From assembly GCA_020831895.1 (NCBI GenBank), contig JAFIFS010000007.1, positions 62,001-126,000 on the forward strand: a stretch of DNA of 64,000 nucleotides, in the 5' to 3' direction. The notes beneath the pieces are model-generated. The model made no database searches. It was given only the letters and a program-made list of their open reading frames with translations, and was not told where the DNA came from. Below, piece after piece: positions 1-19,731 of the stretch (positions are counted from its first letter, which is position 1; each line of letters begins with the position of its first letter). This DNA is from Chromatiales bacterium. GTDB taxonomy: Bacteria; Pseudomonadota; Gammaproteobacteria; Steroidobacterales; GCA-2729495. A program made the translations under genes and the position numbers.

Positions 1-1
1 C

Positions 2-379: not shown

Positions 380-440
380 TGAGTCCGGGCGGCTTCGAGG
401 CCGGCCGCGGTGGAACACGCCACTGCGATGAGAAGCAAAA

Positions 441-469
441 TTGACAACGCTGTCATTCCTTGCTAAATC
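441..469 (+). promoter_or_regulatory. Candidate promoter with overlapping LacI-type operator upstream of the GH16 gene
   Basis: TTGACA (441-446) is followed after 17 bp by a weak -10, TAAATC (464-469). The palindrome TGACAACGCTGTCA (442-455) overlaps the -35. It matches, with one mismatch, a perfect palindrome found upstream of the phosphorylase gene at 11750-11763. The arrangement is that of a repressor operator. Binding by the LacI-family regulator encoded at 6949-8040 is inferred, not shown. Confidence 0.6.
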
Positions 470-506
470 TCCAGCATCAAGGATGCTCCTGACCGCAAGG
501 AATGCC

Positions 507-1457
507 ATGGCCCAGCACAGTTATCGCAAAGCCGCGAAGATGGCTTTTCTGGCCTCTGCCCTCGGGCTGTCTGGCTGCTTTGGAGAAAACGACGAACCGT
601 TGCTGTCAGGCGTGGACGTGGCTCCGCCGGCGCAGCTGCCGCCGCAGGGCAATGTCAACATCCCGAATCCCACGATCACCTTGCTCGACAACACGCCGGT
701 CAGCGCTGGCGCTGCGCGCACACTGGTCTGGAGCGATGAGTTCGACGGTGATCGTGTAGATCCTGAAACCTGGTTTTTCCAGAGCGGAGACGGTACGGAC
801 GAGGGTATCCCGGGCTGGGGCAACAACGAACTGCAGTTCTACCTGCCTGACAATGCCCAAGTCAGCGATGGCCTGCTGAGGATCACCGCGCGCGAGGAGC
901 GGGTTGGCCCGTTCAGGTACACGTCGGCCCGGATCATCACGCGTGACCGGGTGGCTGTCCGCTATGGCCGCATCGAGGCCCGCATCCGTCTGCCTGGAGG
1001 CCAGGGCATCTGGCCCGCATTCTGGCTGTTTGCCCAGGACAGCCCGTACGGCGGCTGGGCGGCCTCGGGCGAGATCGACATCGTCGAGGCCGTAAACCTG
1101 GGTGGCACCGGAGGTAACCGCGTGTTCGGCACCCTTCACTATGGTGGTGAGTTCCCGGCCAACCTCTTCACGAGCCGGCAGTACACGGTGCCGGCTGATG
1201 CCACCCAAGAGTTCCATGTCTATGCGATCGAGTGGGATCCGACGGAGATTCGCTGGTACGTCGATGACGTGCTGTATGCCGTGCAGAACAGCTGGTTCTC
1301 GACCGGCGGGCCTTTCCCGGCGCCCTTCGACACTCCGTTCTATATCCTCCTCAACGTCGCGGTAGGCGGAAATCTGCCTGGCCCACCCAATGAATCGACA
1401 GTATTTCCGGTGACCATGGAAGTCGACTGGGTGCGTGTCTACTCCGGCGTGGACTGA
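507..1457 (+). CDS. GH16 family beta-glucanase (laminarinase-type) lipoprotein
   Basis: An endo-acting beta-1,3(-1,4)-glucanase is predicted. I start it at ATG 507 (316 aa): AAGGA lies 5 bp upstream, and the product then begins with a compact lipoprotein signal ending in the lipobox LSGC (Cys24). An upstream TTG at 441 would lie inside the promoter/operator. After a Pro-rich linker comes the GH16 jelly roll, with VWSDEFDG at its start, the catalytic motif GEIDIVEA (about 188-195; Glu189 nucleophile, Glu194 acid/base) and the usual C-terminal MEVDWVRVY. Membrane anchoring is expected from the lipobox. It lies between the GH17 gene and a repeat lipoprotein. Family assignment is firm; exact substrate linkage is inferred from neighbours. 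Confidence 0.93.
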   Translation: MAQHSYRKAAKMAFLASALGLSGCFGENDEPLLSGVDVAPPAQLPPQGNVNIPNPTITLLDNTPVSAGAARTLVWSDEFDGDRVDPETWFFQSGDGTDEGIPGWGNNELQFYLPDNAQVSDGLLRITAREERVGPFRYTSARIITRDRVAVRYGRIEARIRLPGGQGIWPAFWLFAQDSPYGGWAASGEIDIVEAVNLGGTGGNRVFGTLHYGGEFPANLFTSRQYTVPADATQEFHVYAIEWDPTEIRWYVDDVLYAVQNSWFSTGGPFPAPFDTPFYILLNVAVGGNLPGPPNESTVFPVTMEVDWVRVYSGVD

Positions 1458-1520
1458 AGCCTGATGGCCGCCCCGAACCGCCTCGCGCAAATGCGGCGAC
1501 AACAGTAACGGAGCCAGCCG

Positions 1521-3113: not shown

Positions 3114-3119
3114 CATCCG

Positions 3120-6100
3120 ATGTCATCTGCCTTGGGGCGTCACGGTTCTCGAGGGCCCGCCACGTTGCGGGGCCTCCTGGTCATGCTCTGCTGGCTTGTG
3201 CCGGCTGGCGCGGGAGGCCTTGCCCAGGCGTCGGAAAAGGTCACCACGTTCAGGGACGAAGAAGGCTGGCGCCTGCTCGTCGACGGCCAGGACTTCTACG
3301 TCAAGGGCGTGGTCTGGAGCTACACGCCCAGGGGCGAGAACTACACCTACAACCTGTTTGGCAGATCCGAGGAGTATATCCGCGCCGTAATCGACTACGA
3401 CTTCAGCATGATGAGGGCTGCCGGGATCAACAGTATCCGCAGCTTCATGATGATTCCACCAGAGTGGGTCACCTACATCTTCGAAAAGTACGGCATAAGG
3501 ACCGTGATCAACCCGCTGATGGGGCGCTATGGCACTACCGTGGGCGGCCGTTGGGTGGAGTTCACCGACTACTCGGACCCACTGACAAGGGCGACTCTGA
3601 AGGCTGAGAGCGTGGCCATCGTCGAGCTGTATAACGGCGTCCCCGGTGTGCTGATGTTTGCCTTTGGCAACGAGAATAACTACGGGCTGTCCTGGTCCAG
3701 TTTCGAAATCGAGAACCTCCCTGTCGGCGAGCAGGATACAGCCCGCGCCCGCTTCCTGTATTCACTGTTCAACGAGGTCATCACCGCTGCGAAGGAGGTC
3801 GCCCCGGACTATCCCTATGCCATCGTCAACGGCGACATCCAGTACATCGACCTGATCGCCGAGCTTGTACCCGAACTGGATGTGCTGGGGAGCAACGTCT
3901 ACCGTGGGCGCAGCTTCACCGACCTTTGGTCCCGGGTCGACGAGCGCCTGGATGTTCCGGTGCTGTTCTTCGAATTCGGCAGCGATGCTTACAACGCGAG
4001 AGAGGATCGTGAGGACCAGGTGGCGCAGGCCGACTACCTCTTTCACCAGTGGAGCGAGATGTACCGCAAAGCCTGGGGTAATGGCGAGGAGGGCAACTCG
4101 ATCGGTGGCTACGTCTTCCAGTGGCGGGACGAATGGTGGAAGTACTTGCAGGAGGAGCGCCTCGATATCCATGACACCACGGCCTCCTGGTCCAACGAGG
4201 CCTACCAGTTCGACTGGATGCCGGATGCCCCAAACATGAATGAGGAGTGGTTCGGCATCGCAGCGCTGGGTACCCGCAACCGGGATCGCGTGGCCACGGC
4301 CCGCCCACGCATGGCGGTCGATGTGCTGACGGAGGTCTGGAAGATCGACCCGTATCGCTCACGACCTGCTGAGATCGCACAGGCGTTGGAGCAGATCGAC
4401 CTCGATTACCTGCAGCTGCGCGCCGAAGTGCGCCGGCTTGTGGACCTGACCGAGGAAACCAGGAGAACACTCCGGTTCACCGGTGGCGAGCTGCGCCTGG
4501 AGATGCTGCTCAAGGGCGAATCGTCGAGAATCAAGGAGCAGGGCGAGGATGGCGTCGAGTTCTCTGATGGTCAGATGGTCTTTCTGGATTTCGAGTTCGC
4601 ACCGACCAACCGGATCAGGGGCGAGTTTACCGTAAACATCCTCGGCAACGTCGCCGACACGGAGCCGCTGGAAATCCAGTACGGTCGGCGGGGCCTCCCT
4701 GTGGAGGTCGTAATTGCCCCTGATGGCGACCCTTCGGTCGTGACGACCCGCAGCTTCGACGACCGGGGGCGCATCGAGATCTACGACTTCAATGCGACCT
4801 ACTCAGGGGTGTCGTTCGACATCGAGGCGTTCTACAACACGCCGCGTTTTCACTGGAAGTACGAAGGAGATTTCTTCGGACTGATTCGCGAGGCTACCGA
4901 CATTGCCGGAGGCGACATCTGGAACTCCAAGGCTCCGCAGGGTGTGGAGATACAGGGCAAACAGGGCTGGCTGGACGGGCTTACGCTGCTTTTCGGGCCG
5001 GAAGTGTACTGGGGCGCTAATCCCAAAGCCGTACTCAAATACGATTTCAGCCTCGGCAACTATGACCTGACGTTCATCCACTCGGAAGATGTCGCCCGGC
5101 TGGATGATTCGGCTACTGCGACGCAGGCCACGGAGCGTCAAACCCGGCAGACTACGCTCTACCTGACCCGGACCTTCGGTGACGCCTTGACGCTCGAGCT
5201 GGGCGGCATCATGTCGGCTACCGAAAAAATAGGCGACGAATTCACCCGCTTGTCTGGCCAGAACATCATTCTGGACCAGATTGAATTCAAGGATACCCTC
5301 GGCGTAAAGGGTCGCTTGACCTTCGATTACCTGAATACTCGTTCCTACGTCGCTTTTGACCTCGCAGGCCTTGTCGCCGACGGTGGTGATCCGCTGCGCG
5401 AATTCGGCACTCGACTGCCTTACTCCTCGCTGGGCAACAAGCGGGAGTACGAAGCCGGCGTGATGCTGAATTTCGGGAACTTCATGCTGTTTCCGCGGAT
5501 TCTCTACCGCGACAACCTGGTGGATGCCAACCCCAACATCCAGGCGGATATCGGAGGCCCAGGCAACACCACCCTGTTTCCAGGGCTCCAGGTGCGGAAT
5601 CGTGAAAAGGACCCTTTCGCTGTTCTGGGCAACCGGGAAGCGCGTGCTGCAGAGATATTCCTGACTTACGACCCCACGCCGGAAACGTTCTTCTACGCAT
5701 GGGATAACGACATGCGTGAGGATGCCCGCCTGGCCTACAATATCGGCCTCAACGTCACGCGCTATCCCACGGCCACCGATGCCTTCCAGTTTTTCTTTGA
5801 GGAAGGCGGCATCAACGCGCCATTCGGTGCGGGCCTGCCCAAGGAAACCGTCTGGACAGCCTCCTCACGGGTGGTTTTCAATCCGACGGTCAATGCCAGG
5901 TACATCGCCAATCTGCTGGTAGGCCGGGATCAGTCCACCGGCGACCCGGAGGGGGGCACCCGGCGCTTTTACGAAGTGGCGGGGAAAGCGGTACTCGGCG
6001 GGCGCCATATCCTTTCTGGTCACTTCAAGTTGGATGCCTGGGGGCCTTACGACTTTCACCGCCAGTTCAACCTGACCTACCCGAAACAGCTCAAGCTCGA

Positions 6101-6266
6101 TTATTCGATCCTGCTGGACCAGAACCGTGACCCCCTGAGATCCACGCAGATCGGTATCCGGGGGGAGTACAGGACGCTGGACGAGAACTCACCCGGGGAC
6201 GAGTTCCGGGATGGGCTGAACAGGTACCTGTTCCAGACGGTCTTCTACCTGATCTACCGGTTCTGA
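3120..6266 (+). CDS. TIM-barrel glycosidase (GH2/clan-A-like) fused to a predicted outer-membrane beta-barrel
   Basis: 1048 aa. A signal peptide (about 1-37, ...GGLAQA/S) is followed by a clan GH-A TIM barrel at about 43-400. It has FYVKGVVWSYTPRGENYT at the start, GNEN at 183-186 (acid/base Glu185) and VLFFEFGSDAY at 281-291 (nucleophile Glu285). A short helical linker (about 425-450) leads to roughly 590 residues of alternating strands rich in aromatic/charged pairs, with no further enzyme motif. The chain ends in YLIYRF, the terminal-Phe signature of outer-membrane beta-barrels. I read it as an enzyme tethered by its own barrel to the outer membrane. The fusion is intact, with no frameshift. 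The substrate is probably a beta-glucan oligomer, inferred from neighbours. Confidence 0.75.
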   Translation: MSSALGRHGSRGPATLRGLLVMLCWLVPAGAGGLAQASEKVTTFRDEEGWRLLVDGQDFYVKGVVWSYTPRGENYTYNLFGRSEEYIRAVIDYDFSMMRAAGINSIRSFMMIPPEWVTYIFEKYGIRTVINPLMGRYGTTVGGRWVEFTDYSDPLTRATLKAESVAIVELYNGVPGVLMFAFGNENNYGLSWSSFEIENLPVGEQDTARARFLYSLFNEVITAAKEVAPDYPYAIVNGDIQYIDLIAELVPELDVLGSNVYRGRSFTDLWSRVDERLDVPVLFFEFGSDAYNAREDREDQVAQADYLFHQWSEMYRKAWGNGEEGNSIGGYVFQWRDEWWKYLQEERLDIHDTTASWSNEAYQFDWMPDAPNMNEEWFGIAALGTRNRDRVATARPRMAVDVLTEVWKIDPYRSRPAEIAQALEQIDLDYLQLRAEVRRLVDLTEETRRTLRFTGGELRLEMLLKGESSRIKEQGEDGVEFSDGQMVFLDFEFAPTNRIRGEFTVNILGNVADTEPLEIQYGRRGLPVEVVIAPDGDPSVVTTRSFDDRGRIEIYDFNATYSGVSFDIEAFYNTPRFHWKYEGDFFGLIREATDIAGGDIWNSKAPQGVEIQGKQGWLDGLTLLFGPEVYWGANPKAVLKYDFSLGNYDLTFIHSEDVARLDDSATATQATERQTRQTTLYLTRTFGDALTLELGGIMSATEKIGDEFTRLSGQNIILDQIEFKDTLGVKGRLTFDYLNTRSYVAFDLAGLVADGGDPLREFGTRLPYSSLGNKREYEAGVMLNFGNFMLFPRILYRDNLVDANPNIQADIGGPGNTTLFPGLQVRNREKDPFAVLGNREARAAEIFLTYDPTPETFFYAWDNDMREDARLAYNIGLNVTRYPTATDAFQFFFEEGGINAPFGAGLPKETVWTASSRVVFNPTVNARYIANLLVGRDQSTGDPEGGTRRFYEVAGKAVLGGRHILSGHFKLDAWGPYDFHRQFNLTYPKQLKLDYSILLDQNRDPLRSTQIGIRGEYRTLDENSPGDEFRDGLNRYLFQTVFYLIYRF

Positions 6267-6295
6267 CGATGGCCGTGCAAGGAGGAATCGTCGAT

Positions 6296-7009
6296 ATGTC
6301 GACCAACCATCATCTTACGGTCGCGTCCCCGCGGGCTAGATTCTGGAGGCTGATTGGCGCAGGCCTGCTCGCGATGCTGCTCTCAGCGTGTGAAAGCCCG
6401 AGCGATTCCGAAGGGGTCGTGATCAACCAGATCCTGCTGCCGGCCGACACGCTGCTGAACCTTGCGTGCATCGATGTGGGCATCGGTGCTGAGACCTGCG
6501 TGCTCGGTGACCCGGAGAACCCGTTCGCACTGGTGGCGACGCCTGAATTCGATGTCAACAACCCTGACGCCGAGACCAAGTTCGACCTGGCCAACAAGAT
6601 ACCGGCCGGGCCGACGGGCGCCAAGGCTCGTTTCTACCTGTGGGCCACGGCACTGGCTCGGCGCCCGTCCGGTGAGAACCAGTGGCTGACAGCGAGAGCG
6701 CTGCATGAGCTGTACGATGCCAACAGTGACCCGCTGATCCGGGAGCAGGCGCTGCGTGCCTACCGCTCGGTCCTGGACAACTTCTTCGGCTCAGTGACGT
6801 TCTTCGAGTTCGGCGGCGTGTCGTTTCCGGCCACACTGAACGAGCGGGTGGCCGACGACCTGTTCCGTACCGAGGCGACCGGGTTCGTGCGTCTGGTCCC
6901 CGGCGATCCCATCAACGTGCTCGCTCTTTTCGGCGATTGGGGATATACCTACCGCCCGGCGACGCCACCGGACTTCGTCGACGGCCTGGTGTTCGTCAAT
7001 ATCTTCTGA
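6296..7009 (+). CDS. Lipoprotein of unknown function in the glucan locus
   Basis: 237 aa from ATG 6296, chosen because AAGGAGG lies about 10 bp upstream; a longer reading from 6269 lacks this. A signal peptide ends in lipobox LLSAC (Cys32). I recognise no family. Visible features are a possible disulfide pair in the stretch LACIDVGIGAETCVLG, a helical middle containing TARALHELYDANSD, and an aromatic C-terminus ending DGLVFVNIF. It follows the glycosidase-barrel gene by 29 bp, so co-transcription is likely. Its last 61 bp overlap the 3' end of the convergent lacI-type gene. A role as an accessory surface protein of the glucan system is a guess from position. Confidence 0.7.
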   Translation: MSTNHHLTVASPRARFWRLIGAGLLAMLLSACESPSDSEGVVINQILLPADTLLNLACIDVGIGAETCVLGDPENPFALVATPEFDVNNPDAETKFDLANKIPAGPTGAKARFYLWATALARRPSGENQWLTARALHELYDANSDPLIREQALRAYRSVLDNFFGSVTFFEFGGVSFPATLNERVADDLFRTEATGFVRLVPGDPINVLALFGDWGYTYRPATPPDFVDGLVFVNIF

Positions 7010-8040
7010 CCCGGGGCTGGCCCGGTGGATTCCCTGATTTTGATCGTGCCCGCTATGATTTCCGAGAGAGAGCCGTCAGCCTTCTGCGGAGTGTGGGCGA
7101 CCAGAGCCTCGACCGCACGCTCTGCCATGCGGGCCAGTGGCTGCCGGATGGTTGTCAGGTTCGGGTAGACCTGCTGGGCGAGGGCGCTGTCGTCGCAGCC
7201 TGCAACCGACAGCTGCTCGGGTATCCGGATGCCACGAATGATGACCTCCTGCATCACGCCGGCCGCCATGTCGTCATTTGCAGCGAAGATGGCAGTGGGT
7301 GGATGCTTCAGCTCAAGCAGGCGGGCGGCCGCGGTTTTTCCGCCTGGCGTCGAGTTGTCACCCTGGAGCACCAGCGAGCGGTCCAGTGGGATCCCGCTCT
7401 CCCGCAGGCCCTCACAATAGCCGGAATACCGGTTCTGGACCGCGCTGTGCTGACGGTGTCCCTTGATGAAGCCGATCCGCGTATGCCCCAATGAGACCAG
7501 GTAGCGGGTCATTTCCGAGAAAATCTCGTGATCGTTGGTGGAAATAGAGCACGGTGTTTCCTGTTTGCCACCCGGCGACAGCCTGACCAGCGGCGTACCG
7601 CTGCCTTCTATTGCGCGTACAAGCTCCGGGATATTGGACAGGGGAGCGGCCAGGATAATGCCGGCGGGCCGGACCTGGGATATCAGCGCGTCGAGCTCTG
7701 ACACGACCTCCCGCTCGGCGTAGCTGTAGGGGTGAATCAGCAGCTCATGACTGGCAGCCCGGCAGGCCCGCAGCGCCCCACTTTGCAGCCTCAGCACGTA
7801 GCCGCAGCTGGCCATGTCATGCGACTCGGGATCCTCGTAGATCAGCACGATCAGCCGGGAACGGCGGCTCGCGAGGTTGCGGGCAAACTGGTTGGGACGG
7901 TAGCCGAGGACCTTGATGGCTCGCTCTACCTCGGCACAGGTATCCGCACGCACGTTGGGCTCCCGGTTGATCACGCGGGAGACCGTCTTCGGGGACACCC
8001 CGGCCAGTCGGGCAACGTCGGTTATGGTGGCTTTGATCAT
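6949..8040 (-). CDS. LacI-family transcriptional regulator, probable glucan-locus repressor
   Basis: 363 aa. The N-terminus has the canonical LacI helix-turn-helix (ITDVARLAGVSPKTVSRVIN at 6-25) and hinge helix (about 54-61). A periplasmic-binding-protein-like sugar domain follows: LVSLGHTRIGFIKG, PTAIFAANDDMAAGV and the C-terminal TTIRQPLARMAERAVE. It lies 116 bp downstream of the phosphorylase gene on the same strand and may be transcribed from the same operator-bearing promoter, giving autoregulation. The effector is unknown; LacI regulators of this kind usually sense the locus's oligosaccharide or an early metabolite. The last 20 residues overlap the convergent lipoprotein gene. Family certain; regulon inferred from palindromes at 442, 11750, 11890 and 12049. 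Confidence 0.93.
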   Translation of the reverse strand: MIKATITDVARLAGVSPKTVSRVINREPNVRADTCAEVERAIKVLGYRPNQFARNLASRRSRLIVLIYEDPESHDMASCGYVLRLQSGALRACRAASHELLIHPYSYAEREVVSELDALISQVRPAGIILAAPLSNIPELVRAIEGSGTPLVRLSPGGKQETPCSISTNDHEIFSEMTRYLVSLGHTRIGFIKGHRQHSAVQNRYSGYCEGLRESGIPLDRSLVLQGDNSTPGGKTAAARLLELKHPPTAIFAANDDMAAGVMQEVIIRGIRIPEQLSVAGCDDSALAQQVYPNLTTIRQPLARMAERAVEALVAHTPQKADGSLSEIIAGTIKIRESTGPAPGQKILTNTRPSTKSGGVAGR

Positions 8041-8156
8041 TTGCTCAGCTGCTGATCAGCCTGCGTCCGCGAAGTCGCGCGTGGCAGCCCGACAAGACCA
8101 AAACGGCGATTCTAGTCGCTGGCACCGTGCAGGTGAATGCTTTTTGTGCAGCATGC

Positions 8157-11100
8157 TCAGCCCGTTGCGCCCCCGGAGAAGAGTGAATGTTCCGGGAAGA
8201 CGAGCTCGATCCTTCTGATTGCCCCGGTGCGCTTGAACACCTCGGCGCTCTCGTCGTGCTCCAGCCAGTTACGCGGCAGGCGGCGCTCGCTTCCGTCCCG
8301 AAGCACCAGTGTCAGGGAGGGGTGCCGGGCCTTGCCAATACCGTAGATCACCGGCAGCTGGCACCAGGAGAACGCCAGCGTGTTCTTGGCAAGCTCGATC
8401 TGCTGCCAGGACCCGTCCACGGCCAGGTGGCGGAATATTCCTGCCTGGCCCAGCAACTCCTGTGTCCGCAGCAGGGCGGGTTCGAAACAGACTTTCCCGC
8501 CCCTGACGCGCAGGCCAAGCTCCCCAAATCGCGTGATGATTTCTTCCTTGACCTGTCCGGTCATGCCGGGCTGCGAGGCCCCGGCGTGCCTCGGGGTATG
8601 TGAGTAAGGATCGGTGGGGAACGCTCCGTATTCCCCGGGCTGCTTGTTGAACCCAAGGCCGGCCCTGATGCTGTAGTAGAGTACCCCCAGGGACTGGCAA
8701 AGTTCTGCTGACTCATCCGCTTCCCGGGCGCGAAAAAAAGCCTCCTGGGTCGCAAGTAGCAGCTTGGCGACCATATGCCAGTAGATAGATCCGAGGCCCT
8801 CGAACGCGAACATGGTGCCGGAACGCCCCGTGAAGCGCTTGTGGTTGAACACGGACTCGTAGACTGCCTCGATGGCGGCCTCGCTGCCCTCGACGGCATC
8901 GCCATAGTCGGGCACCAGGGCCCGCAGCTGCTCCCTCAATGCCCTCGCGTTCTGCAGGCCGGGGTGGAAGCGATAACACCCTTCAGCATCGAGCAGCACG
9001 ATCCGCTCGTCACCCCGATCCAGCATGCACCTGAGCAGAGGGATGCCTTCGAGCTGGCCTGCATCAATACGGTTCTTCTCGAGGAACGCGGGCAGCTTCC
9101 GGTCCGGATACAGCATGAAGCTGTGCTGGTCCTTCCGGTACATCTCGCTGGCAAAAAGTGCCTCCAGCAGCCTGACGGCCTCCCTGGCAGGAACCGCTCC
9201 GGAGTCCAGTGCCGCGACCTGGCCCTCGAGCATCGGATACAGACGACTGATTTCTGCCATCCCTGGCTGCAGCTCAAGCAGGTTGTAGGTGTGGTAGAGG
9301 CCGTCAGGGCGTCGGTTTCCAGTGATGCTGTGGTCCAGAGCGGCAGCCGTGTCATCCAGCAGCTCCTGGAGAGTCTCGGCGGAATGCTCGACTGTGCCGG
9401 AGTACCCGTCGATCCGGTAGATCGACGAACGGTAATGGCTTGCCGCCTCACCCAGTTCCTTGAGTGAGTTGAAGCGAAGGCTGGCGTCCACTCGGCCTGC
9501 TGTGAGTCGTTTACGCAGGCGCCTCATGGCATCTGACGTCGCCGACAGCCACTGGCTGACCTCGACAGACAGGACGATCGCGCAACCCTGACTCTCCAGC
9601 AGTTGCGCAAGCAGCCGCACATAGCGTCGCATATGGCACAGCGTGACCACAGACAGCCCGTGGCCCACCAGCGCGTTGTTGGCATCGTTCCACTCAGGCC
9701 GCTGCGTATTGAGCCAGATGCCTCCGCCAGGCACGAAGTTGGCCAGCTTGGCCAGCATCGGGACCAGCAGCTTTTCCAGCAGCGTCACCTGGTAAACCTC
9801 GCCATCGGGCGCTCTGACCAGCTTTCCGTCAGCGCCGATCGCCGCTACGTGCTGCTCGATACGTGCGGCAAGGTTGTGGTCATAGTCGACCGTATGCTTC
9901 GGATCGCGCAGCTGCGCCTGGAAGGGCCTGATGCGGTAGGGAACATTGGCATAGCTGAAAAGCGGCGTATGCAGCAACTGATTCAGGCGTGCCGGGTGGT
10001 ACTGGACCGACAGTTCGAGCAACCTGAGCAGGTAGATGATCTGGTGGTCGCCCCAGTAGCCGATGTGGCTCCAGGGATTGTCGGGCTCCTCGACTTCCCA
10101 GTCGATGCCCTCCTTGGTGATCCGGTAGGGGTTGTAGCCATCCCTGGTCGAGGCATTGACGAACTTGGCGATCATGCTCTCGATCATTTCCGGGAAGGCG
10201 AGCGCCAGCGCTTCCCAGTTCTGGAAGATGTCGCGCCAGTTGCCTTCGTAGGACAGCAGCCTGCTACCGTCCTCGTCCCGGAGGCGGATGGTGAAGTGAT
10301 TCCACGGCCGGCTTGGGTCGCCATGGCGTCGCCCAAAAGTCAGCGGCAGGTACTCGCGGGCCAGCCGCAGCAGCTGCATGTCGCCATGGGCGGATACCCT
10401 GGCCAGCAGATCCTCCAGCGGCAGTGCATCAGGCAGCTGCAGCAGAAAATCGCGGCTGCGGTCGTGTACCTCGCGGTTGGAGCAGGCCACGGTTCGCCTG
10501 AAATCCTCGGTCGGCACCGAGTACTGGTCGAAGAAAACGCCGCCACGCATGCCATTGAACAGCGTATTGGCGTAGTGGTGGACGACAACGGCTTCTTCAG
10601 CCGCCAGCTGGAAGCCATCGCAGCTGGCCACGGTTCGCGCCAGGCTGTCGCTGCCCTCAGCGACCGAGCGGTCGATGGCGGCGCTGAGCTGGTCGGGCTC
10701 CTGCAGCGCTCGACGCAGCGCAACCACGTCCTTCTGGCTCTGCTCGGTGTTGGCTACCATCCGCCAGACCACCGGTGCCCCGCCAGTCAGCTCGAGACTG
10801 CTCGCCGGAAGGTAGGCCCCGCGGACACCGCGCACCAAGGCTTCCGCACGCAGTGCTGAGCCCGCCTTGAAGCCATCGATCTGGGCCGTGGAGAGCAGGT
10901 GAGTACTGGCCTTCAGGCCCAGGCAGAACACCGTGGTGGCTCTCAGCGATTCCGCAGGCTCGGCGCGGTCGGTGATGGCCGAGTAGAGCGTCAGGATGGC
11001 CAGCCCGCTTTCGGGGTAGAGCTCGTTCCACTTGTAAGCATCCACCAGGTTGCTGACGTTGGTCTGTGCGTAAAGCTTTGTGCCGGCCGGCAGCAGGTTC

Positions 11101-11636
11101 TGCAGCCCGTCCAGCAGGTCAACGGCAAGCGTGCCAGGACCGTCATACTGGAGCTGGCACTGGCGGACAAAACCGTACTCACGACTGGTCATCCATGTGC
11201 AGCGGAAGCGCAGCTTGAGGTCATGGTTGATCTCCTCGAAGGAGAGCTTGTTGCCAAGGACGGTCTTGTAGAGGTTGCGCGTGATCGCATACCGGCCGCC
11301 GTGATCGCGACTGAATGGCTCCCAGATATGCACATCCGCGGCGTCATGCACGCGCAGCAGCGTCCGGCTGCCGGTATGCCCCTGGCTGTCGTGAATCTTG
11401 TCGACGGTGACGTAGGGGAAAAGGGCATTATCCGGTGAGACCCTGCCCGCGGTCACGGCACCATTCGAGGAGGCAAACAGCCAGTGGTCGTCGCTCGAAA
11501 CCAGGCTGATCAAGAACGGAGACATCTGTTCTACGTCGCAGATCAGGTAGCTGCGCTCCCCTGCAAGGTCGACAAATTTCCCTTGGGGCCTTGGCTGTTG
11601 GCTCATCGTGCCGCGGAATGGCTGGTGGGCTTTCAC
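8157..11636 (-). CDS. Large GH94-superfamily phosphorylase, GH149-like (candidate beta-1,3-oligoglucan phosphorylase)
   Basis: 1159 aa from GTG 11636, which has GAGGA 4 bp upstream; ATG 11606 is an alternative with no clear ribosome site. There is no signal peptide, so it is cytoplasmic. An N-terminal beta-rich domain (about 25-340) precedes an (alpha/alpha) barrel with SYEGNWRDIFQNWEAL (462-477), GYWGDHQIIYLLRLLEL (526-542) and RPEWNDANNALVGHGLS (646-662). The Asp of WND (about 651) aligns with the general acid of GH94-type enzymes. Length and motifs fit GH149 better than classical GH94 cellobiose phosphorylases of about 800 aa. Neighbouring GH16 and GH17 genes point to beta-1,3-gluco-oligosaccharides, yielding glucose 1-phosphate. 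Superfamily confident; family number moderately so. Confidence 0.75.
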   Translation of the reverse strand: MKAHQPFRGTMSQQPRPQGKFVDLAGERSYLICDVEQMSPFLISLVSSDDHWLFASSNGAVTAGRVSPDNALFPYVTVDKIHDSQGHTGSRTLLRVHDAADVHIWEPFSRDHGGRYAITRNLYKTVLGNKLSFEEINHDLKLRFRCTWMTSREYGFVRQCQLQYDGPGTLAVDLLDGLQNLLPAGTKLYAQTNVSNLVDAYKWNELYPESGLAILTLYSAITDRAEPAESLRATTVFCLGLKASTHLLSTAQIDGFKAGSALRAEALVRGVRGAYLPASSLELTGGAPVVWRMVANTEQSQKDVVALRRALQEPDQLSAAIDRSVAEGSDSLARTVASCDGFQLAAEEAVVVHHYANTLFNGMRGGVFFDQYSVPTEDFRRTVACSNREVHDRSRDFLLQLPDALPLEDLLARVSAHGDMQLLRLAREYLPLTFGRRHGDPSRPWNHFTIRLRDEDGSRLLSYEGNWRDIFQNWEALALAFPEMIESMIAKFVNASTRDGYNPYRITKEGIDWEVEEPDNPWSHIGYWGDHQIIYLLRLLELSVQYHPARLNQLLHTPLFSYANVPYRIRPFQAQLRDPKHTVDYDHNLAARIEQHVAAIGADGKLVRAPDGEVYQVTLLEKLLVPMLAKLANFVPGGGIWLNTQRPEWNDANNALVGHGLSVVTLCHMRRYVRLLAQLLESQGCAIVLSVEVSQWLSATSDAMRRLRKRLTAGRVDASLRFNSLKELGEAASHYRSSIYRIDGYSGTVEHSAETLQELLDDTAAALDHSITGNRRPDGLYHTYNLLELQPGMAEISRLYPMLEGQVAALDSGAVPAREAVRLLEALFASEMYRKDQHSFMLYPDRKLPAFLEKNRIDAGQLEGIPLLRCMLDRGDERIVLLDAEGCYRFHPGLQNARALREQLRALVPDYGDAVEGSEAAIEAVYESVFNHKRFTGRSGTMFAFEGLGSIYWHMVAKLLLATQEAFFRAREADESAELCQSLGVLYYSIRAGLGFNKQPGEYGAFPTDPYSHTPRHAGASQPGMTGQVKEEIITRFGELGLRVRGGKVCFEPALLRTQELLGQAGIFRHLAVDGSWQQIELAKNTLAFSWCQLPVIYGIGKARHPSLTLVLRDGSERRLPRNWLEHDESAEVFKRTGAIRRIELVFPEHSLFSGGATG

Positions 11637-11735
11637 TTCGTCCTCGCAGGTGCCTTGCAGACAGGGTGCCGGCTCTGTCGTGTCGAGCCTTAACCCTGCG
11701 CCTGGCCTTGTGGCCCACGGTGCTTCAGGCCGGTC

Positions 11736-11766
11736 ATTCTAGTTAAGGCTGACAGCGCTGTCAGCC
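11736..11766 (-). promoter_or_regulatory. Promoter of the phosphorylase gene overlapped by a perfect 20-bp LacI-type operator
   Basis: On the minus strand CTGACA (-35, forward 11759-11764), a 17-bp spacer and TAGAAT (-10, forward 11736-11741) form a good sigma-70 promoter. The expected transcript starts about 90 bp before the GTG at 11636. The perfect palindrome GGCTGACAGCGCTGTCAGCC (11747-11766) covers the -35 and most of the spacer. There is no loop or T-run, so it is not a terminator. Geometry is that of a repressor operator; the likely ligand protein is the LacI-family regulator downstream. Confidence 0.7.
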
Positions 11767-11889
11767 TGCGCAGAGCGCGGTAGCATGCCTTGAGCTCTGG
11801 CGCAGTGAACGACTTGCCGTGAGACACAGGCATCGCCGATGCCATATGTTCCCGGGCCTCTGACCTGTTCGAAGGCGCTGAGCCCAGGG

Positions 11890-11903
11890 TGATAGCGCTG
11901 TCA
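11890..11903. promoter_or_regulatory. LacI-type operator-like palindrome
   Basis: TGATAGCGCTGTCA differs at one position from the perfect palindrome TGACAGCGCTGTCA at 11750-11763, 140 bp away. It lies between the divergent phosphorylase and PEP-CTERM genes. It could be an auxiliary operator allowing looping, or serve the rightward gene. No strong promoter was recognised directly over it. Confidence 0.5.
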
Positions 11904-12048
11904 TTACGCCTGACCCATACCGTGAAGTCGCGTGAACGGGCCGGAATAAAATTCATATAAGCAATGTAAAACAAGAACCTATGTGTTATTTATGAGAATC
12001 ATATGGATGTGGGTCTCCTCGCAGTGCAAGCGGGTCCAGCCTTGCAAA

Positions 12049-12062
12049 TGACTGCGCTATCA
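12049..12062. promoter_or_regulatory. Weaker LacI-type operator-like site upstream of the PEP-CTERM gene
   Basis: TGACTGCGCTATCA matches the locus palindrome at 12 of 14 positions and lies 145 bp before the start at 12207. It sits among -10-like sequences (TATCAT at 12058-12063, TATAGC at 12063-12068). It is the least certain of the four sites, because two symmetric mismatches could also define a different regulator's site. Confidence 0.4.
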
Positions 12063-12206
12063 TATAGCGTCACTATGACGCCTGTTTCTAATCCGGCGGC
12101 AGGTCTGCAATAAATCAGGAAACACGGTGGATAAGGCGGTTGAGGCCGCCAACCTCAGTCGGAATGTGATAACGAGCAACCAATACAAATTGCAGGGGAA
12201 TACATC

Positions 12207-12890
12207 ATGATGAGAACAACAAGCGCGAGCGCCATCATCGGAGCATCCTTCGTGCTGCTTGCCGGGACGGCTCAGGCGGCGACAGTGCAAGATGTCGCCA
12301 TCAACGGCGACTTTGAAGCCGGACTCGACGGCTGGCTTCAGTTTCCATCCGGCGGAACCATCGGTATCGCAGCCGACAACGGCCCAAGTGGGCCTGGCTC
12401 ACAATCCGCTCAGCTGATCGCGGACGGATCGGGTGGTCCCTCGTTTCCGCAGATAAAGCTCGAGCGACTCGCCCCGGGCCTCCTGTTCCCCGGAGCAGAT
12501 GTTACCGTCCAGTACGACGCGCGTTCACCGCTCCAGACGCAGAACATCAACGCAGGCGATTTCGTCGGTAATGTAGTGTTTATTGCCGAGCTTTTTTCCG
12601 AGTTCGCCCAGGACGGCGCAACGAACGAGATCCTTCAGGGCCCGCCGAATTGGCTGACAGAGGACTGGCAGACTTTCACGTTTACCACCACACTCGGTCC
12701 CGACGTGGCGGGCGGTCTGTCGCTGCTGTTCAAGGCTGACTGCGGCGCCAACCCAGACTGCCGGTTCACCGCGTTGATCGACAACGTCTCGATCACCACC
12801 GCCGTCGTTCCGATACCTGCAGCCATGTGGCTTTTTGGCTCGGCCTTGGGCCTCATGGCATTCATGCGCCGGCGAGCCGCAGTCGCCTGA
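12207..12890 (+). CDS. Exported PEP-CTERM sorting-domain protein with a CBM-like jelly-roll domain
   Basis: 227 aa. A signal peptide (cleavage near ...GTAQA/A, about 25) is followed by a domain starting INGDFEAGLDGWLQF and ending FTALIDNVSIT, a pattern seen in CBM4/9/22-like jelly rolls. The C-terminus is a classic PEP-CTERM tail: VPIPAAMWLFGSALGLMAF then the basic MRRRAAV. Such tails are recognised by exosortases, which are not encoded in this window. AGGGGAA lies a few bases before ATG 12207; ATG 12210 is equally possible. It is expressed away from the phosphorylase gene across a region with operator-like sites, so it may bind or package glycan outside the cell. The PEP-CTERM call is firm; ligand unknown. 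Confidence 0.85.
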   Translation: MMRTTSASAIIGASFVLLAGTAQAATVQDVAINGDFEAGLDGWLQFPSGGTIGIAADNGPSGPGSQSAQLIADGSGGPSFPQIKLERLAPGLLFPGADVTVQYDARSPLQTQNINAGDFVGNVVFIAELFSEFAQDGATNEILQGPPNWLTEDWQTFTFTTTLGPDVAGGLSLLFKADCGANPDCRFTALIDNVSITTAVVPIPAAMWLFGSALGLMAFMRRRAAVA

Positions 12891-12932
12891 CCTGACCACC
12901 CATGCCGTGCCAGCCAGGCGGCTGCGCGGTGA

Positions 12933-12990
12933 CTCTGGCCTTGAACAAACAAGCCCCGCGTAAGCGGGGCTTGTTTGTTCAAGGCCAGAG
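12933..12990. terminator. Perfect 27-bp-arm hairpin, bidirectional terminator
   Basis: Arms 12933-12959 and 12964-12990 are exact inverted repeats of 27 bp around the loop GTAA. The inner part is a GC-rich stem (AAGCCCCGC / GCGGGGCTT). The outer part contains TTGTTTGTT on each strand, which provides a U-rich tract in both directions. It separates the convergent PEP-CTERM gene and the alternative oxidase gene, so it can serve both. Confidence 0.9.
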
Positions 12991-13012
12991 GAAACCCGTC
13001 TCGCTGCGGCCA

Positions 13013-13678
13013 CTACCGCCTGTCGCCGGAATCAATCTGGTCCGCAAAGCCATGGTTGACGTCGCGGTGCTTGGCCTCATCAGCGCGCACCGCCTCCACC
13101 ACCTCTCTCAGGCGAGCGTCCGGGCTCAGCTTCCAGTAACGAATGGCTAGGGCAGGTGCGCGGACATTTTCATGACGTCCGCTGTCTATTGCCTCCCGGT
13201 ACTGCGTGTAGCTGTAGACGGCTTCCTCTTCCAGGTAGCCCACCATCCGGTGAGCCGTACGCGTGGACAGCATGTAGAGAAGGAAGAATCCGTAGTAGAA
13301 AAACATCTGGGCAATCACGATGATGGCGCGCTCCAGCCGGTTGGGCTGGGCAATATGGAGAAAAGTCATCAGGTGCATGCGCTCGTTTTCTGCTTCATCA
13401 AGCAGGGTACGGATCCAGTCATCGTCGTCCTTGAGGCGCCGCAGTGAACGCAGGTGCTGTATCGCTCCCCCCACCATCCCGGGTACCGCGGCAACTGTTT
13501 CCAGGACCACTGCCCGATGCCCATAGCGTCCCGCGAAGAAGGCATCGGCAAAAAACCGCATGAAACTAACCAGCGCGCGGGCGATACGATCGGAGATTCC
13601 GCTGGGCTGGTGCCGGTGATCAAGCCGGATGTCGTCTTCCAGGACCAGGCCTTCGTGCTTGCGTGCTGTGGCGACCAT
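13013..13678 (-). CDS. aox: Alternative oxidase (ubiquinol:oxygen oxidoreductase, diiron)
   Basis: 221 aa from ATG 13678; the frame extends to a GTG at 13792, but the extra 38 residues are not family-like. Neither start has a clear ribosome site. All diiron ligands are visible: VVLETVAAVPGM (Glu60), AENERMHLMTF (Glu99, His102), YLEEEAVYSYT (Glu151) and ADEAKHRDVNH (Glu201, His204). The enzyme passes electrons from ubiquinol to oxygen without proton pumping, as an interfacial inner-membrane protein, and resists cyanide and nitric oxide. In bacteria it is often stress- or NO-induced; no regulator gene adjoins it here. It lies alone between a terminator and tmRNA. The family call is secure. Confidence 0.93.
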   Translation of the reverse strand: MVATARKHEGLVLEDDIRLDHRHQPSGISDRIARALVSFMRFFADAFFAGRYGHRAVVLETVAAVPGMVGGAIQHLRSLRRLKDDDDWIRTLLDEAENERMHLMTFLHIAQPNRLERAIIVIAQMFFYYGFFLLYMLSTRTAHRMVGYLEEEAVYSYTQYREAIDSGRHENVRAPALAIRYWKLSPDARLREVVEAVRADEAKHRDVNHGFADQIDSGDRR

Positions 13679-13943
13679 GCTGGGTAAGTTTCTCACTTGC
13701 TCTGTCTTTTCCGACAGTCGCCCGGCATCAGAGTTCCGGCGTGCGCTTCCCTGCCGTAGCCGGGCGCCGGGTCTTGCCAGCTGGCATGCCACGATATCAG
13801 GTGCGCTGCGATCATTGCCCTGATCTGGTCGCTCATGCCTGATTGCCGGGATTGACCCGGGCTCGGCGCCCCGTCGAGGTCTGTCCGGGGCATACCCTGG
13901 GCGCCAGGCTGGAGATGAGCTGAGCAGCTGGTCCGGAACGACA

Positions 13944-13975
13944 AAGGCCGGCCTGGACGACTCCAGACCGACCTT
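13944..13975 (-). terminator. Rho-independent terminator of tmRNA
   Basis: On the minus strand, just after the tmRNA 3' CCA, a 14-bp stem (forward 13944-13957 with 13962-13975, two G-U pairs) with a 4-nt loop is followed by TTTGT. It also separates ssrA from the alternative oxidase gene downstream. Confidence 0.75.
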
Positions 13976-13980
13976 TTATT

Positions 13981-14336
13981 TGGTGGAGGCGGCGGGAATC
14001 GAACCCGCGTCCGCAAGCCCTCTGCTCCGTGCTCTACATGCTTATCCACGTCTATTAATCTTGCTGCCAGCTTCCCGACGGGCAGGGAGCACTGGTAGCC
14101 AGTTCAGTAAGTTTTAGCAATCAGGCCCTGAACATACCCTCATGCGATCTTGTGATAGATGACGCCCGGACCGGACCCACAAGCAGGAACCGGGGTGGAC
14201 GCTGGCGGGGCTTAAGCCGCCAGAGCGTAGTTGTCGTCGTTCGCAACTAGCGTGGTTGCAGCTGGATTTACGAGGTGTTCTGCCCCTCGGCATGCACCCG
14301 GAGGTTCGCAACCCACGTCGAAGCCAGGTCGCCCCC
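13981..14336 (-). ncRNA. ssrA: tmRNA (transfer-messenger RNA)
   Basis: The 5' end GGGGGCGACCTGGCTTCGAC (ending at forward 14336) pairs with the 3' end CGCCTCC-ACCA (forward 13981-13991) to form the tRNA-like acceptor stem. The T-arm GGGTTCGATTCCC precedes it. Total length is about 356 nt, close to the 363 nt of E. coli. The resume frame (forward 14212-14244) encodes the tag ANDDNYALAA followed by TAA. The RNA rescues stalled ribosomes together with SmpB, whose gene lies 148 bp upstream on the same strand. Confidence 0.95.
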
Positions 14337-14350
14337 CGAAGTCAGTAGAG

Positions 14351-14380
14351 ACTATACACCGGGTTGGTGTGGGGTGTCAG
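14351..14380 (-). promoter_or_regulatory. Promoter of tmRNA
   Basis: On the minus strand CTGACA (forward 14375-14380) and TATAGT (forward 14351-14356) are separated by 18 bp. They lie just upstream of the mature 5' end at 14336, leaving a short 5' leader that would need RNase P processing. Match to sigma-70 consensus is 5/6 in each box. Confidence 0.7.
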
Positions 14381-14484
14381 GGGATTGGACAGGCTGGGGC
14401 CGGGGAGGTTCCTGGGTCGGGCAGCAAGATTCGCGAATGAATTCGCTCCTACATATTTATTAATCATGATGTTGGATATATAAG

Positions 14485-14967
14485 CTATCGTGGTTTCAGG
14501 ATGCGTGCCTTCTGCCGCTGCCAGTCGCGGTCCTTTTCCGTCGCCCGCTTGTCATGCTTCTTCTTGCCCTTGGCCAGGCCCAGGGCCAGCTTGGCGCGGC
14601 TGCGTGACCAGTAGAGTTTCAGCGGGACCAGGGTGTAGCCCTCGCGCTCCACGGCGCCGGCGAGGCGGTCGAGTTCGCGGCGGCCAAGCAGCAGCTTGCG
14701 GGTGCGGATGGGATCGGGCTTCACATGAGTCGAGGCCGAGAGCAGCGGTGCGACGTTGGCGCCAATCAGGAAGGCCTCGCCGTTCTTCAGTACCGCGTAG
14801 GCCTCGGTCAGGTTGGCGCGGCCGGCGCGCAGGCTTTTCACTTCCCAGCCCTCGAGGACGAGGCCAGCCTCGTAGGTCTCCTCGATGAAGTAGTCAAAGC
14901 GCGCCTTGCGGTTCTCGGCGATCAGCTTCTGGCCACCTGGACTGTCGGTTTTCTTCTTGCTGCTCAT
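14485..14967 (-). CDS. smpB: SsrA-binding protein SmpB
   Basis: 160 aa, normal family length. It begins [20 protein letters not shown] and contains the OB-fold hallmarks [32 protein letters not shown] and the basic C-terminal tail [18 protein letters not shown], which enters the ribosome during trans-translation. SmpB delivers tmRNA to stalled ribosomes. The gene is immediately upstream of ssrA on the same strand. ATG start at 14967; the 79 bp to the divergent transporter gene should hold both promoters. Confidence 0.97.
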
Positions 14968-15046
14968 GGGGCTGGTGGCCGGCGCGTGTTGTGGGGCAGG
15001 GGTGATTACTGCAGAATTCGGCGAACTTTAGCAGGCTGAGAGGCAG

Positions 15047-16429
15047 ATGTCGGTTCCGGGCGGCGGGCAACGTACTTCACTTCACGGATTCTGGTCGTCG
15101 CGGCTTGCCTTCATCCTGGCGGTGACGGGCTCGGCTGTCGGGCTCGGCAACATCTGGAAGTTCCCGTACATGACGGGCGAGTATGGGGGCAGCGCATTCG
15201 TGCTGGTCTACCTCGGCGCCGTACTGCTCGTCGGGCTTCCGATCATGATGTCCGAGATCCTGATCGGCCGGCGTGGGCGCCGCAACCCGGTCACGACCAT
15301 GCGGCTGCTGGGCCAGGAGGAGTCCGGCTCCTCGCAGTGGCAGTGGGTCGGTGCGCTGGGAATCATGGGCGGTTTCCTCATCCTGTCGTTCTACGGGGTG
15401 ATCGCCGGCTGGACAGTGGCTTACGTCTTCGAGGCGGCGCGCGGTGCGTTCGCCGGCGCCGGTGCGGCCGAGATCGACGCACGGTTCAGCGCACTCGAGG
15501 GCAGTGCGTTGCGCACAGGGTTCTGGCACACGCTGTTCATGCTGCTGACGATCCTGATCGTGGCCCGCGGCGTCGAGCGGGGGCTCGAGCAGGCGGTGCG
15601 GGTGATGGTGCCTGGTCTCCTGGTCATCATGGTCGTGCTGCTGGTCTATGCGGCGGGCACGGGCGCCTTCGGCCAGGCAGCGGAGTTCATGTTCCGCCCG
15701 GACTTCTCTGCGCTGGATGGCACCGTGATCCTGGCCGCGCTGGGCCAGGCCTTCTTCTCGCTCAGCATAGGCATGGCCTGCGTGATGGCCTATGGTGCCT
15801 ACCTGCCCCAGGATGCATCCATAGGTCGTACCTCTCTGGCCGTGGTTGCGGCCGACACCTCGATCGCCCTGCTGGCAGGGATGGTGATATTTCCCATCGT
15901 GTTCGCCAACGGCCTGGACCCCGCCGACGGCATCGGCCTGGTGTTCAAGACGCTGCCGATTGCCTTCGGCAGCATGGGCGGCGGCGTGCTCATCGGCATG
16001 CTGTTCTTCCTGCTGCTGAGCTTCGCCGCGCTGACCTCGGCGATCAGCCTGATGGAGCCGACCGTGGCCTGGGTGATGGAGAGTCGCGGTGTCAACCGTG
16101 GCGTTGCGGCGACGATCGTCGGCGTCCTGATCTGGCTGCTGGGCTTTGCCACCGTGTTCTCGTTCAACCTGCTGCAGGACTTCCGGTTCCTGCGCGGCAC
16201 GCTCTTCGCCAATATCGATTTCCTGACCAGCAACATCATGCTGCCGCTGGGCGGGCTGCTGGTCACCCTCTTCGCCGGCTGGTTCATGTCGTCCAATTCG
16301 ACTTCGGGCGAGCTTGACCCCCAGGCTGGCACCGGATACCAGCTGTGGCGCATCCTGGTGCGCTGGGTGACTCCGGCTGCGGTCATCATCGTGTTCCTGA
16401 ACAGCATCGGCCTTCTGGACCTGGCCTGA
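15047..16429 (+). CDS. Sodium-dependent transporter, neurotransmitter:sodium symporter (LeuT/SNF) family
   Basis: 460 aa with about 11-12 hydrophobic helices. TM1 contains GSAVGLGNIWKFPYMTGEYG (about 28-47), the conserved unwound sodium- and substrate-binding helix. GASIGMAC-type and FFLLLSFAALTSAISLMEP segments (TM6-8 region) also fit the family. It would import an amino acid or similar solute with Na+ across the inner membrane; substrate not deducible. It is inserted between smpB and ratA, and its stop overlaps the ratA start (TGATG), so the two are translationally coupled. ATG 15047 follows GAGAGGCAG. Confidence 0.92.
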   Translation: MSVPGGGQRTSLHGFWSSRLAFILAVTGSAVGLGNIWKFPYMTGEYGGSAFVLVYLGAVLLVGLPIMMSEILIGRRGRRNPVTTMRLLGQEESGSSQWQWVGALGIMGGFLILSFYGVIAGWTVAYVFEAARGAFAGAGAAEIDARFSALEGSALRTGFWHTLFMLLTILIVARGVERGLEQAVRVMVPGLLVIMVVLLVYAAGTGAFGQAAEFMFRPDFSALDGTVILAALGQAFFSLSIGMACVMAYGAYLPQDASIGRTSLAVVAADTSIALLAGMVIFPIVFANGLDPADGIGLVFKTLPIAFGSMGGGVLIGMLFFLLLSFAALTSAISLMEPTVAWVMESRGVNRGVAATIVGVLIWLLGFATVFSFNLLQDFRFLRGTLFANIDFLTSNIMLPLGGLLVTLFAGWFMSSNSTSGELDPQAGTGYQLWRILVRWVTPAAVIIVFLNSIGLLDLA

Positions 16430-16860
16430 TGCGCACGGTCACGCGCAGCGCGATCGTGCCCTATACACCGGCACAGATGTTCGAGCTGGTGGCCGATGTC
16501 GAGGCCTATCCCCGGTTCCTGCCCGGCTGCGTGGGCTCCTCGATACGCTCGCGCACGCCGGATGAGCTCGTGGCCACCTTGCAGCTTGCGCGTGGACCAC
16601 TCAGGACGGCATTCACTACCCGCAACGGGCTCGAGCCTCCGCGCCGCATGACACTGGAGCTGCTCGAGGGCCCTTTCCTGCTGCTCGAAGGCGCCTGGGA
16701 GTTCACGGCGCTGGGCGAGCAAGGCTCGCGCGCCGTGCTGTCACTGCGCTTCGAGTTTGACAGCGCGATGAAGGACCTGCTGCTGGGTCCGGTATTCGAG
16801 GCTACCTGCAACCAGCTCGTGGATGCATTCGTCGAGCGGGCGGCGGTCGTCTATGCCTGA
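16429..16860 (+). CDS. ratA: RatA/COQ10-like START-domain protein (ubiquinone-binding or ribosome-association factor)
   Basis: 143 aa from ATG 16429, overlapping the transporter stop by one base; an in-frame ATG at 16345 would read through the transporter gene and is not credible. The small START fold is recognised by VPYTPAQMFELVADVEAYP near the N-terminus, FLPGC, and the C-terminal FEATCNQLVDAFVERA. Its eukaryotic relative COQ10 binds ubiquinone. E. coli RatA was described as blocking 70S subunit association. Position between smpB and rnfH matches the conserved gammaproteobacterial order. Which biochemical role applies is unsettled. Confidence 0.9.
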   Translation: MRTVTRSAIVPYTPAQMFELVADVEAYPRFLPGCVGSSIRSRTPDELVATLQLARGPLRTAFTTRNGLEPPRRMTLELLEGPFLLLEGAWEFTALGEQGSRAVLSLRFEFDSAMKDLLLGPVFEATCNQLVDAFVERAAVVYA

Positions 16861-17170
16861 GTCGGCGTCTGGCACGATCACTGTCGAACTGGCCTGCGCG
16901 CTGCCGCGGCGTCAGTGGCTGCTGCTGCTGGAGCTGCCCCGCGGTACCCGTGCGCGCGGGGCGGTGCTGGGCAGCACCTTGCCTGGCGAGTGTCCCGAGA
17001 TCGACTTCGGGCGCTGTCCGCTCGGCATCTGGGGGGAGCCTGCCCCGGATGACCGCCTGCTGGAAACTGGCGACAGGGTAGAGGTCTATCGGCCGCTGCA
17101 GCGTGATCCCCGCGATGCGCGCCGTGAGCTGGCGGCTCGCGGACTGACCATGTCCGGGCGGGGAAGGTAG
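16853..17170 (+). CDS. rnfH: RnfH family protein (UPF0125, ubiquitin-like fold)
   Basis: 105 aa from ATG 16853, overlapping ratA by 8 bp; a longer reading from 16823 is less likely. The beta-grasp family pattern is visible: ITVELACALPRRQWLLLLEL, then IDFGRCPLGIWGEPAPDD, then LLETGDRVEVYRPLQRDPRD, the last being the best-conserved stretch of RnfH proteins. It ends with a basic tail (MSGRGR). The ratA-rnfH pair is conserved; the function remains poorly defined. Confidence 0.9.
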   Translation: MPESASGTITVELACALPRRQWLLLLELPRGTRARGAVLGSTLPGECPEIDFGRCPLGIWGEPAPDDRLLETGDRVEVYRPLQRDPRDARRELAARGLTMSGRGR

Positions 17171-17181
17171 GCGGGACGCCG

Positions 17182-17520
17182 CTACATCGGGCGGGTGACG
17201 GGCACGTCGCGCCTGATCTCGCTCACTCGATCACCCTCGAAGAACACGATGATCCAGCGCTGCTCCGGTACGCGGCTGCGGCCCTCCCTGAAGGAGAACA
17301 TGTAGTCCCAGCGGTCGGGATGGAAGGAGTCGCTGACGACGGGTGTTCCGAGCAGAAAGCGCACCTGGCTGCGCGTCATGCCGACCTGTACGGCATCGAT
17401 ACTGGCCTCGTCAAGCAGATTGCCCTGCTGGACATCCACCCGGTAGACGCAGGCGCCGGTCAGCAGGGCGGCCAGCAGGATCAGCAGGGCAGGAGACCTG
17501 AGTACGGGGCAACGCGACAT
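17182..17520 (-). CDS. bamE: Outer membrane assembly lipoprotein BamE (SmpA/OmlA)
   Basis: 112 aa from ATG 17520, where the signal peptide makes sense: MSRCPVLRS then a hydrophobic core and lipobox LTGAC (Cys near 25). Mature motifs typical of BamE are VQVGMTRSQVRFLLGTPVV and DRWDYMFSFREG. The protein is an accessory subunit of the BAM complex that inserts beta-barrel proteins into the outer membrane. It converges with rnfH and diverges from fur, an order shared with pseudomonads. A longer reading to 17682 would overlap fur and should be ignored. Confidence 0.96.
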   Translation of the reverse strand: MSRCPVLRSPALLILLAALLTGACVYRVDVQQGNLLDEASIDAVQVGMTRSQVRFLLGTPVVSDSFHPDRWDYMFSFREGRSRVPEQRWIIVFFEGDRVSEIRRDVPVTRPM

Positions 17521-17623
17521 CTGTGCTTCCACTCCGTGTCCGGCGCGTGGCGGGCGCCGCCGGGAAAAACGTGGCAGGATGATAGCCCAAGAGCTGCCAT
17601 GGTACACGGGCGAAGACACCGGC

Positions 17624-18031
17624 ATGGAACCTGGGGAACTGCACAAGGCCGGGCTCAAGGCCACCTCGGCGCGATTGCGCATCCTGGAAATCCTGCGCGA
17701 GGAGCAGGAGCATCACCTGAGTGCGGAAGACATCTACCGCCGGCTGCTCGATGCCGGTGACGAGGTGGGTCTCGCGACTGTCTATCGCGTGCTGACGCAG
17801 TTCGAGGCGGCCGGGCTGGTGGCGCGACACAACTTCGCCACAGGCCATTCCGTATTCGAGCTGGATTCCGGCTGCCACCATGACCATATGGTCTGCATGG
17901 AAACCGGCCAGGTGGTCGAGTTCCTCAGTGACGAGATCGAGCGCCTGCAGCGCGAGGTCGCCGCGGCCCATGGCTACGAGCTGGTCGATCACAGCCTGGT
18001 CCTTTACGTGAGACCCAGGAAGGACAGCTAG
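17624..18031 (+). CDS. fur: Ferric uptake regulator Fur
   Basis: 135 aa from ATG 17624 (MEPGELHKAGLKATSARLRI); an upstream in-frame ATG at 17579 adds 15 atypical residues. Winged-helix DNA-binding residues GLATVYRVLTQFEAAGLV and the metal site HHDHMVC are present. The second Cys of the E. coli CxxC zinc motif is missing (CMETG), as in Pseudomonas-type Fur, and there is no His-rich tail. With Fe2+ it represses iron-uptake genes. It is divergent from bamE and convergent with recN, with only 9 bp between the stops and no obvious terminator. Confidence 0.96.
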   Translation: MEPGELHKAGLKATSARLRILEILREEQEHHLSAEDIYRRLLDAGDEVGLATVYRVLTQFEAAGLVARHNFATGHSVFELDSGCHHDHMVCMETGQVVEFLSDEIERLQREVAAAHGYELVDHSLVLYVRPRKDS

Positions 18032-18040
18032 CCCGGGCGC

Positions 18041-19720: not shown

Positions 19721-19731
19721 GGAGCGCCTTC

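Follow-up and report, generated by a model that had tools for sequence, protein, structure and literature searches.

The window, meaning here the whole stretch of 64,000 nucleotides, carries in its left part a gene set of the laminarin type, as described in passages on GH149 clusters and on Woeseiaceae laminarin loci (PMC5827456, PMC12175321). The positions of its genes and control elements are listed in Table 1. The cluster also holds genes for an MFS_2/GPH-type sugar transporter and a GH3 beta-glucosidase. A further gene, beginning to the left of the window, was read as GH17-like, and its fragment matched no family. The phosphorylase matched NF058639 over its full length (residues 17–1146), scoring 1591 bits where the cut-off is 1150. 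Its translation probably starts at the GTG at 11636, just downstream of a ribosome-binding-like GAGG; an alternative ATG at 11606 is without such a sequence. The PEP-CTERM-type gene is divergent from GH149, and its relatives at the 31–40% level adjoin the cluster in some related genomes. A repeat protein without a Pfam match (1521–3113, plus strand) lies in the same region; it contains roughly three carbohydrate-binding-like modules, and its relatives adjoin the cluster in several loci.

Table 1. Genes and putative control elements of the cluster (window positions)
Feature	Position	Strand	Remarks
GH16 glucanase-like secreted protein	441..1457	+	ORF as listed; true start probably downstream of operator
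Operator TGACAACGCTGTCA	442..455		Precedes GH16 gene; TTGACA-17-TAAATC on plus strand, -10 weak
1048-aa protein	3120..6266	+	GH158-like domain and outer-membrane-barrel-like C-terminal half (both predicted)
LacI-family regulator	6949..8040	-	PF00356, 60.6 bits (cut-off 27); Peripla_BP_3
GH149–lacI gap	8041..8156	-	Promoter-like TTCACC-17-TAGAAT at 8137-8109; no operator
GH149 beta-1,3-glucan phosphorylase	8157..11636	-	NCBIfam NF058639; PDB 6hq6
Phosphorylase promoter	11736..11764	-	-35 CTGACA 11764-11759, 17-bp spacer, -10 TAGAAT 11741-11736
Operator O1	11746..11767		Perfect 22-bp palindrome; core conserved in 38/40 GH149 loci
Weaker operator O2 TGATAGCGCTGTCA	11890..11903		140 bp from O1, centre to centre
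Weaker operator O3 TGACTGCGCTATCA	12049..12062		Upstream of PEP-CTERM gene; 299 bp from O1
PEP-CTERM-type surface protein	12207..12890	+	Weak matches, below curated cut-offs

The regulator consists of an N-terminal LacI-type helix-turn-helix (PF00356) and a periplasmic-binding-type ligand domain (PF13377), both scoring over the cut-off, and its recognition helix reads VSPKTVSRV. In the hinge helix, L56 and A53 are invariant across 10 aligned regulators, L56 being the leucine which in the LacI family inserts at the central CG of the operator; sections 7 and 9 of the published recognition code hold no entry for the PK pair (PMC2978694). The regulator gene and a convergent gene for a 246-aa protein (6269–7009) overlap at their 3' ends by 61 bp (6949–7009). 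A C-terminal tail of about 17–20 residues is missing in nine relatives of the regulator, which may be partly an artefact of stretches cut at the match.

The initial annotation had placed a perfect 20-bp palindrome on the phosphorylase promoter. The sequence GGCTGACAGCGCTGTCAGCC is indeed present at 11747–11766, but its length was understated, as the perfect symmetry extends by one base on each side to give the 22-bp sequence AGGCTGACAGCGCTGTCAGCCT. This element, O1, with the core TGACAGCGCTGTCA at 11750–11763, is an even palindrome centred on CG, as in operators of the LacI family. The minus-strand promoter proposed at the same place was also found, with 10/12 matches the top of three promoter-like matches in 7900–12300, and its -35 hexamer is supplied by the left half of the palindrome. 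For perfect palindromes of at least 20 bp the expected number in 64 kb is 0.13, and 7 of 60 first-order Markov simulations of the window contained one, so that symmetry alone is weak to modest evidence; the bare palindrome is thus only mildly unusual, and the case is built on comparison. In relatives the outer GGC/GCC arms of O1 are not conserved, the flanks are A/T-rich, and the conserved operator core is TGACARCGYTGTCA.

Exact TGACARCGYTGTCA was detected in three copies in the 2.82 Mb of the own genome, all within 15 kb (contig C108, positions 58970, 62442 and 73750), and the reversed-pattern control gave no match in the same 2.82 Mb. The three copies are located between the divergent transporter and GH3 genes, before GH16 and before GH149. 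One lies 3 kb left of the window and another at 442 within it, neither of which had been noted at first, and the set of sites is therefore wider than the single operator originally described, with local copies at the GH3, transporter and GH16 genes and probably at the PEP-CTERM gene. Within the 570-bp intergenic region between the phosphorylase and PEP-CTERM genes, three sites with 0, 1 and 2 mismatches form an array (at 11750, 11890 and 12049); this is not chance, because none of 2000 simulations of the region gave even two operator sites. The spacings of 140, 159 and 299 bp among O1, O2 and O3 showed no clear helical phasing that would point to looping. With a weight matrix built from 71 sites of the GH149 loci of relatives, the five cluster sites were the top five of 124 kb, the last of them still at 14.3 bits and the next match at 2.4 bits. 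The promoter fit is good at GH149, and the sites of GH16 and GH3 have weak -10 hexamers. Six of the near matches elsewhere in the own genome (L003, L004 and L010–L013) lie inside open frames of at least 100 aa and were taken as chance. The gene for the window regulator was the single PF00356 match in the genome, which makes the assignment of operator to regulator unusually clean within the 92% completeness of the assembly, a level at which another LacI-type gene could have escaped assembly.

Among 296 genomes of the order, GH149 was present in 58. The exact motif was found in 56 of these 58 versus 46 of the 238 GH149-negative genomes, and the reversed pattern in 13 of the 296; its presence in 46 genomes without GH149 indicates that the class of LacI regulators to which the motif belongs is a wider one. 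In 40 GH149 loci taken from 40 of the 58 positive genomes, exact TGACANCGNTGTCA was found in 38, and one of the two loci without it (L045) stops at a contig edge right behind GH149. The genes beside the sites code for TonB-dependent receptors, GH149, GH16, GH3, MFS transporters, LacI, CBM9 and members of the ADP-ribosylglycohydrolase family. In a second set of 80 loci from relatives with an xKTVSR helix, selected for a regulator resembling that of the window and sharing some contigs with the 40 so that the two sets are not independent, the motif occurred in 66 and the reversed control in none. It occurred in 1 of 20 other LacI-family loci of the order, a control group that is not proven to be non-xK, in that several members are xK-like (KK, AK, FK), at least 10, including the motif-bearing L202, were left unclassified by the helix pattern, and two (L199 and L200) carry genes already typed VA (L182, L183).

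The position of the promoter relative to the operator was compared over 73 sites read in both directions, including two window sites and the nearby site L005 and leaving aside sites at contig ends. A -10-like hexamer (matching TATAAT in 4 or more of its 6 positions) followed the core after 8 bases in 54 of 146 site orientations, versus 2 to 22 of 146 at 21 other offsets tested. The 8-base offset corresponds to a 17-bp spacing with nTGACA as the -35 hexamer, and L051, L054 and L058, which belong to another family and have a PK helix like the window regulator, share TAGAAT at this spacing. The enrichment of the 17-bp spacing over the 73 sites shows that an operator doubling as the -35 box is a conserved design, and such a design fits repression by exclusion of RNA polymerase.

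These observations altogether indicate that the palindrome is very probably the operator of the local LacI-family repressor of a cluster for utilization of beta-1,3-glucan (laminarin). The proposal that the phosphorylase promoter carries a LacI-family operator thus stands, with the resident regulator as the most likely binder, given the motif in the GH149 loci and the single PF00356 protein. A repressor dimer would bind the 14-bp core with its hinge helices at the central CG, and, as the -35 hexamer is the left half of the operator, RNA polymerase should be kept off the phosphorylase promoter while the repressor is bound. With operator copies before GH16 and between the divergent GH3 and transporter genes, all of these would form one regulon. 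A breakdown product of laminarin, for example laminaribiose, may release the repressor, by analogy with GlyR3 (see below), and O2 and O3 could be auxiliary sites or serve the control of the divergent PEP-CTERM gene. The operator with its conservation and promoter geometry, the gene content and the single lacI gene can be seen in the sequence itself; binding by the resident protein, repression and the inducer are inferred, and conservatively so because of the precedents of GlyR3 and the Pseudomonas GntR.

For the regulator gene itself, the initial annotation had proposed autoregulation through a transcript shared with the phosphorylase gene, a point that is less certain. The gene order behind this proposal is conserved, lacI being on the GH149 strand in all 36 loci scored (4 of the 40 had no lacI above the score used) and no further than 5 kb downstream of GH149 in 33 of them; together with the absence of a terminator-like site between GH149 and lacI, this makes read-through into lacI plausible. 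Against it, the 117-bp gap between the two genes contains a promoter-like site with 9/12 matches, a score to be read beside the 0.9 promoter-like sites that shuffles yield in the scanned region. In addition, the 300 bp upstream of the own lacI contain no operator-like site (the best has 4 mismatches), versus 20 of 38 relatives in which an operator differing at no more than 2 positions lies in the corresponding 300 bp, exact in 9 of them; the 38 include L070, a distant 31% homologue. Autoregulation would therefore operate here only by read-through from the phosphorylase promoter. A private lacI promoter in the gap may be seen as a fair alternative to read-through, and a version in which the operator acts as described above while lacI is made from this promoter without autoregulation is a tentative but serious possibility.

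The other alternatives concern the palindrome. The occurrence of the motif in genomes without GH149 could mean that another transcription factor binds it; this is very unlikely, since the own genome has a single PF00356 protein and the motif goes with xK-helix regulators rather than with the other LacI loci. Nothing specific speaks for the regulator being an activator, and in relatives the operator covers a -35 box that has the 17-bp spacing, a position that would leave no room for polymerase and makes activation about equally improbable. That the palindrome arose by chance, as in the few simulated windows that also contained one, or that it forms an RNA hairpin or terminator, is still harder to credit. 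Both the core and the promoter geometry are conserved, and the palindrome lies upstream of the predicted start. The terminator reading was rejected, the sole terminator-like match in 7900–12300 being located elsewhere, and an Rfam scan of 1–20000 gave nothing at the palindrome and the tmRNA as its sole match.

As the operator of a LacI-type repressor, the palindrome has close precedents. In passages of a survey of LacI-family regulons (Ravcheev et al. 2014, PMC4052901), a central CG is given for 1173 transcription factors and autoregulation for 72%, and the system described here resembles these local sugar regulons in its even palindrome, its central CG and its local control of sugar genes; the main-text passages of that survey name no laminarin, glucan or GH149 regulon. 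GlyR3 of Clostridium thermocellum is described as a repressor of the LacI family that acts on its own operon, celC-glyR3-licA, and is released by laminaribiose (PMC5483248), but it differs in its operator TGAACGCGCGTACA, its cellulase-type targets and its Gram-positive host, and GH149 does not occur in the passages concerned. GntR of Pseudomonas plecoglossicida, also of the LacI family, gave a DNase I footprint on AGACAGCGCTGTCT, a core near-identical to that of the window operator, and represses itself and gluconate genes; it is different with respect to these gluconate targets and to the divergent position of the regulator (passages of PMC12195362). For GH149 clusters and Woeseiaceae laminarin loci, passages of PMC5827456 and PMC12175321 list GH149 with GH16, GH17, GH3 and a transporter, and a LacI gene is noted in the type I GH149 clusters of the former; these passages mention no operator or regulon, and LacI is absent from the main text of the latter. 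Among titles and beginnings of abstracts, no publication was found that describes this regulon; most subscription papers and RegPrecise lie outside this scope, and it may be listed there. The system can be regarded as a well-made representative of the known local regulons of the LacI type, and it is ordinary as regulatory biology.

In relatives, thirteen operator pairs spaced 34–37 bp apart were observed with a -10 between the two operators, which places the second operator at the predicted start. The loci with such pairs are L049, L057, L063, L064, L065, L071, L072, L073, L076, L078, L079 and L080. Eleven pairs lie beside a TonB receptor gene; the direction is ambiguous at L071, and all of the 10 unambiguous pairs are directed at the receptor. 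The two further pairs are beside GH16 (L072) and in a locus with no detected receptor (L073). The window contains no operator pair at 34–37 bp and its cluster no receptor gene; when the receptor of a relative was searched against the own genome, no TonB-receptor homologue was matched, which is not proof of absence. It is rather likely that a single LacI-type regulator, acting through one class of operator, controls GH149, GH16, GH3, transporter and receptor genes in several families as a broad, undescribed laminarin regulon. In this regulon the operator would itself be the -35 box, and at the promoters of TonB receptors two operators roughly 35 bp apart, one on the -35 box and one at the start site, would lock the receptor more tightly than the enzymes.

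Laminarin is one of the major carbon stores of algae. If the above reading is true, one transcription factor and a 14-bp operator would mark the genes for its use across uncultured sediment bacteria, laminarin regulons would become predictable from sequence, and the regulator–operator pair might be used as a simple sensor part. Orphan genes could also be linked to laminarin, for example that of the 1048-aa protein, which has no Pfam or NCBIfam match and of which relatives with 55–72% identity are located at GH149 loci. In a structural model of this protein, weak with a mean pLDDT of 53.5 so that fold matches are leads only, the N-terminal half appears similar to GH158 (endo-beta-1,3-glucanase) and the C-terminal half is predicted to form long antiparallel strands ending in F, resembling an outer-membrane barrel. 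Beyond the PEP-CTERM-type gene, the window carries a gene for an alternative oxidase (PF01786, 264.7 bits; 13013–13792, minus strand), here in a bacterial genome, and the tmRNA gene (Rfam RF00023, 215 bits; 13981–14336, minus strand).
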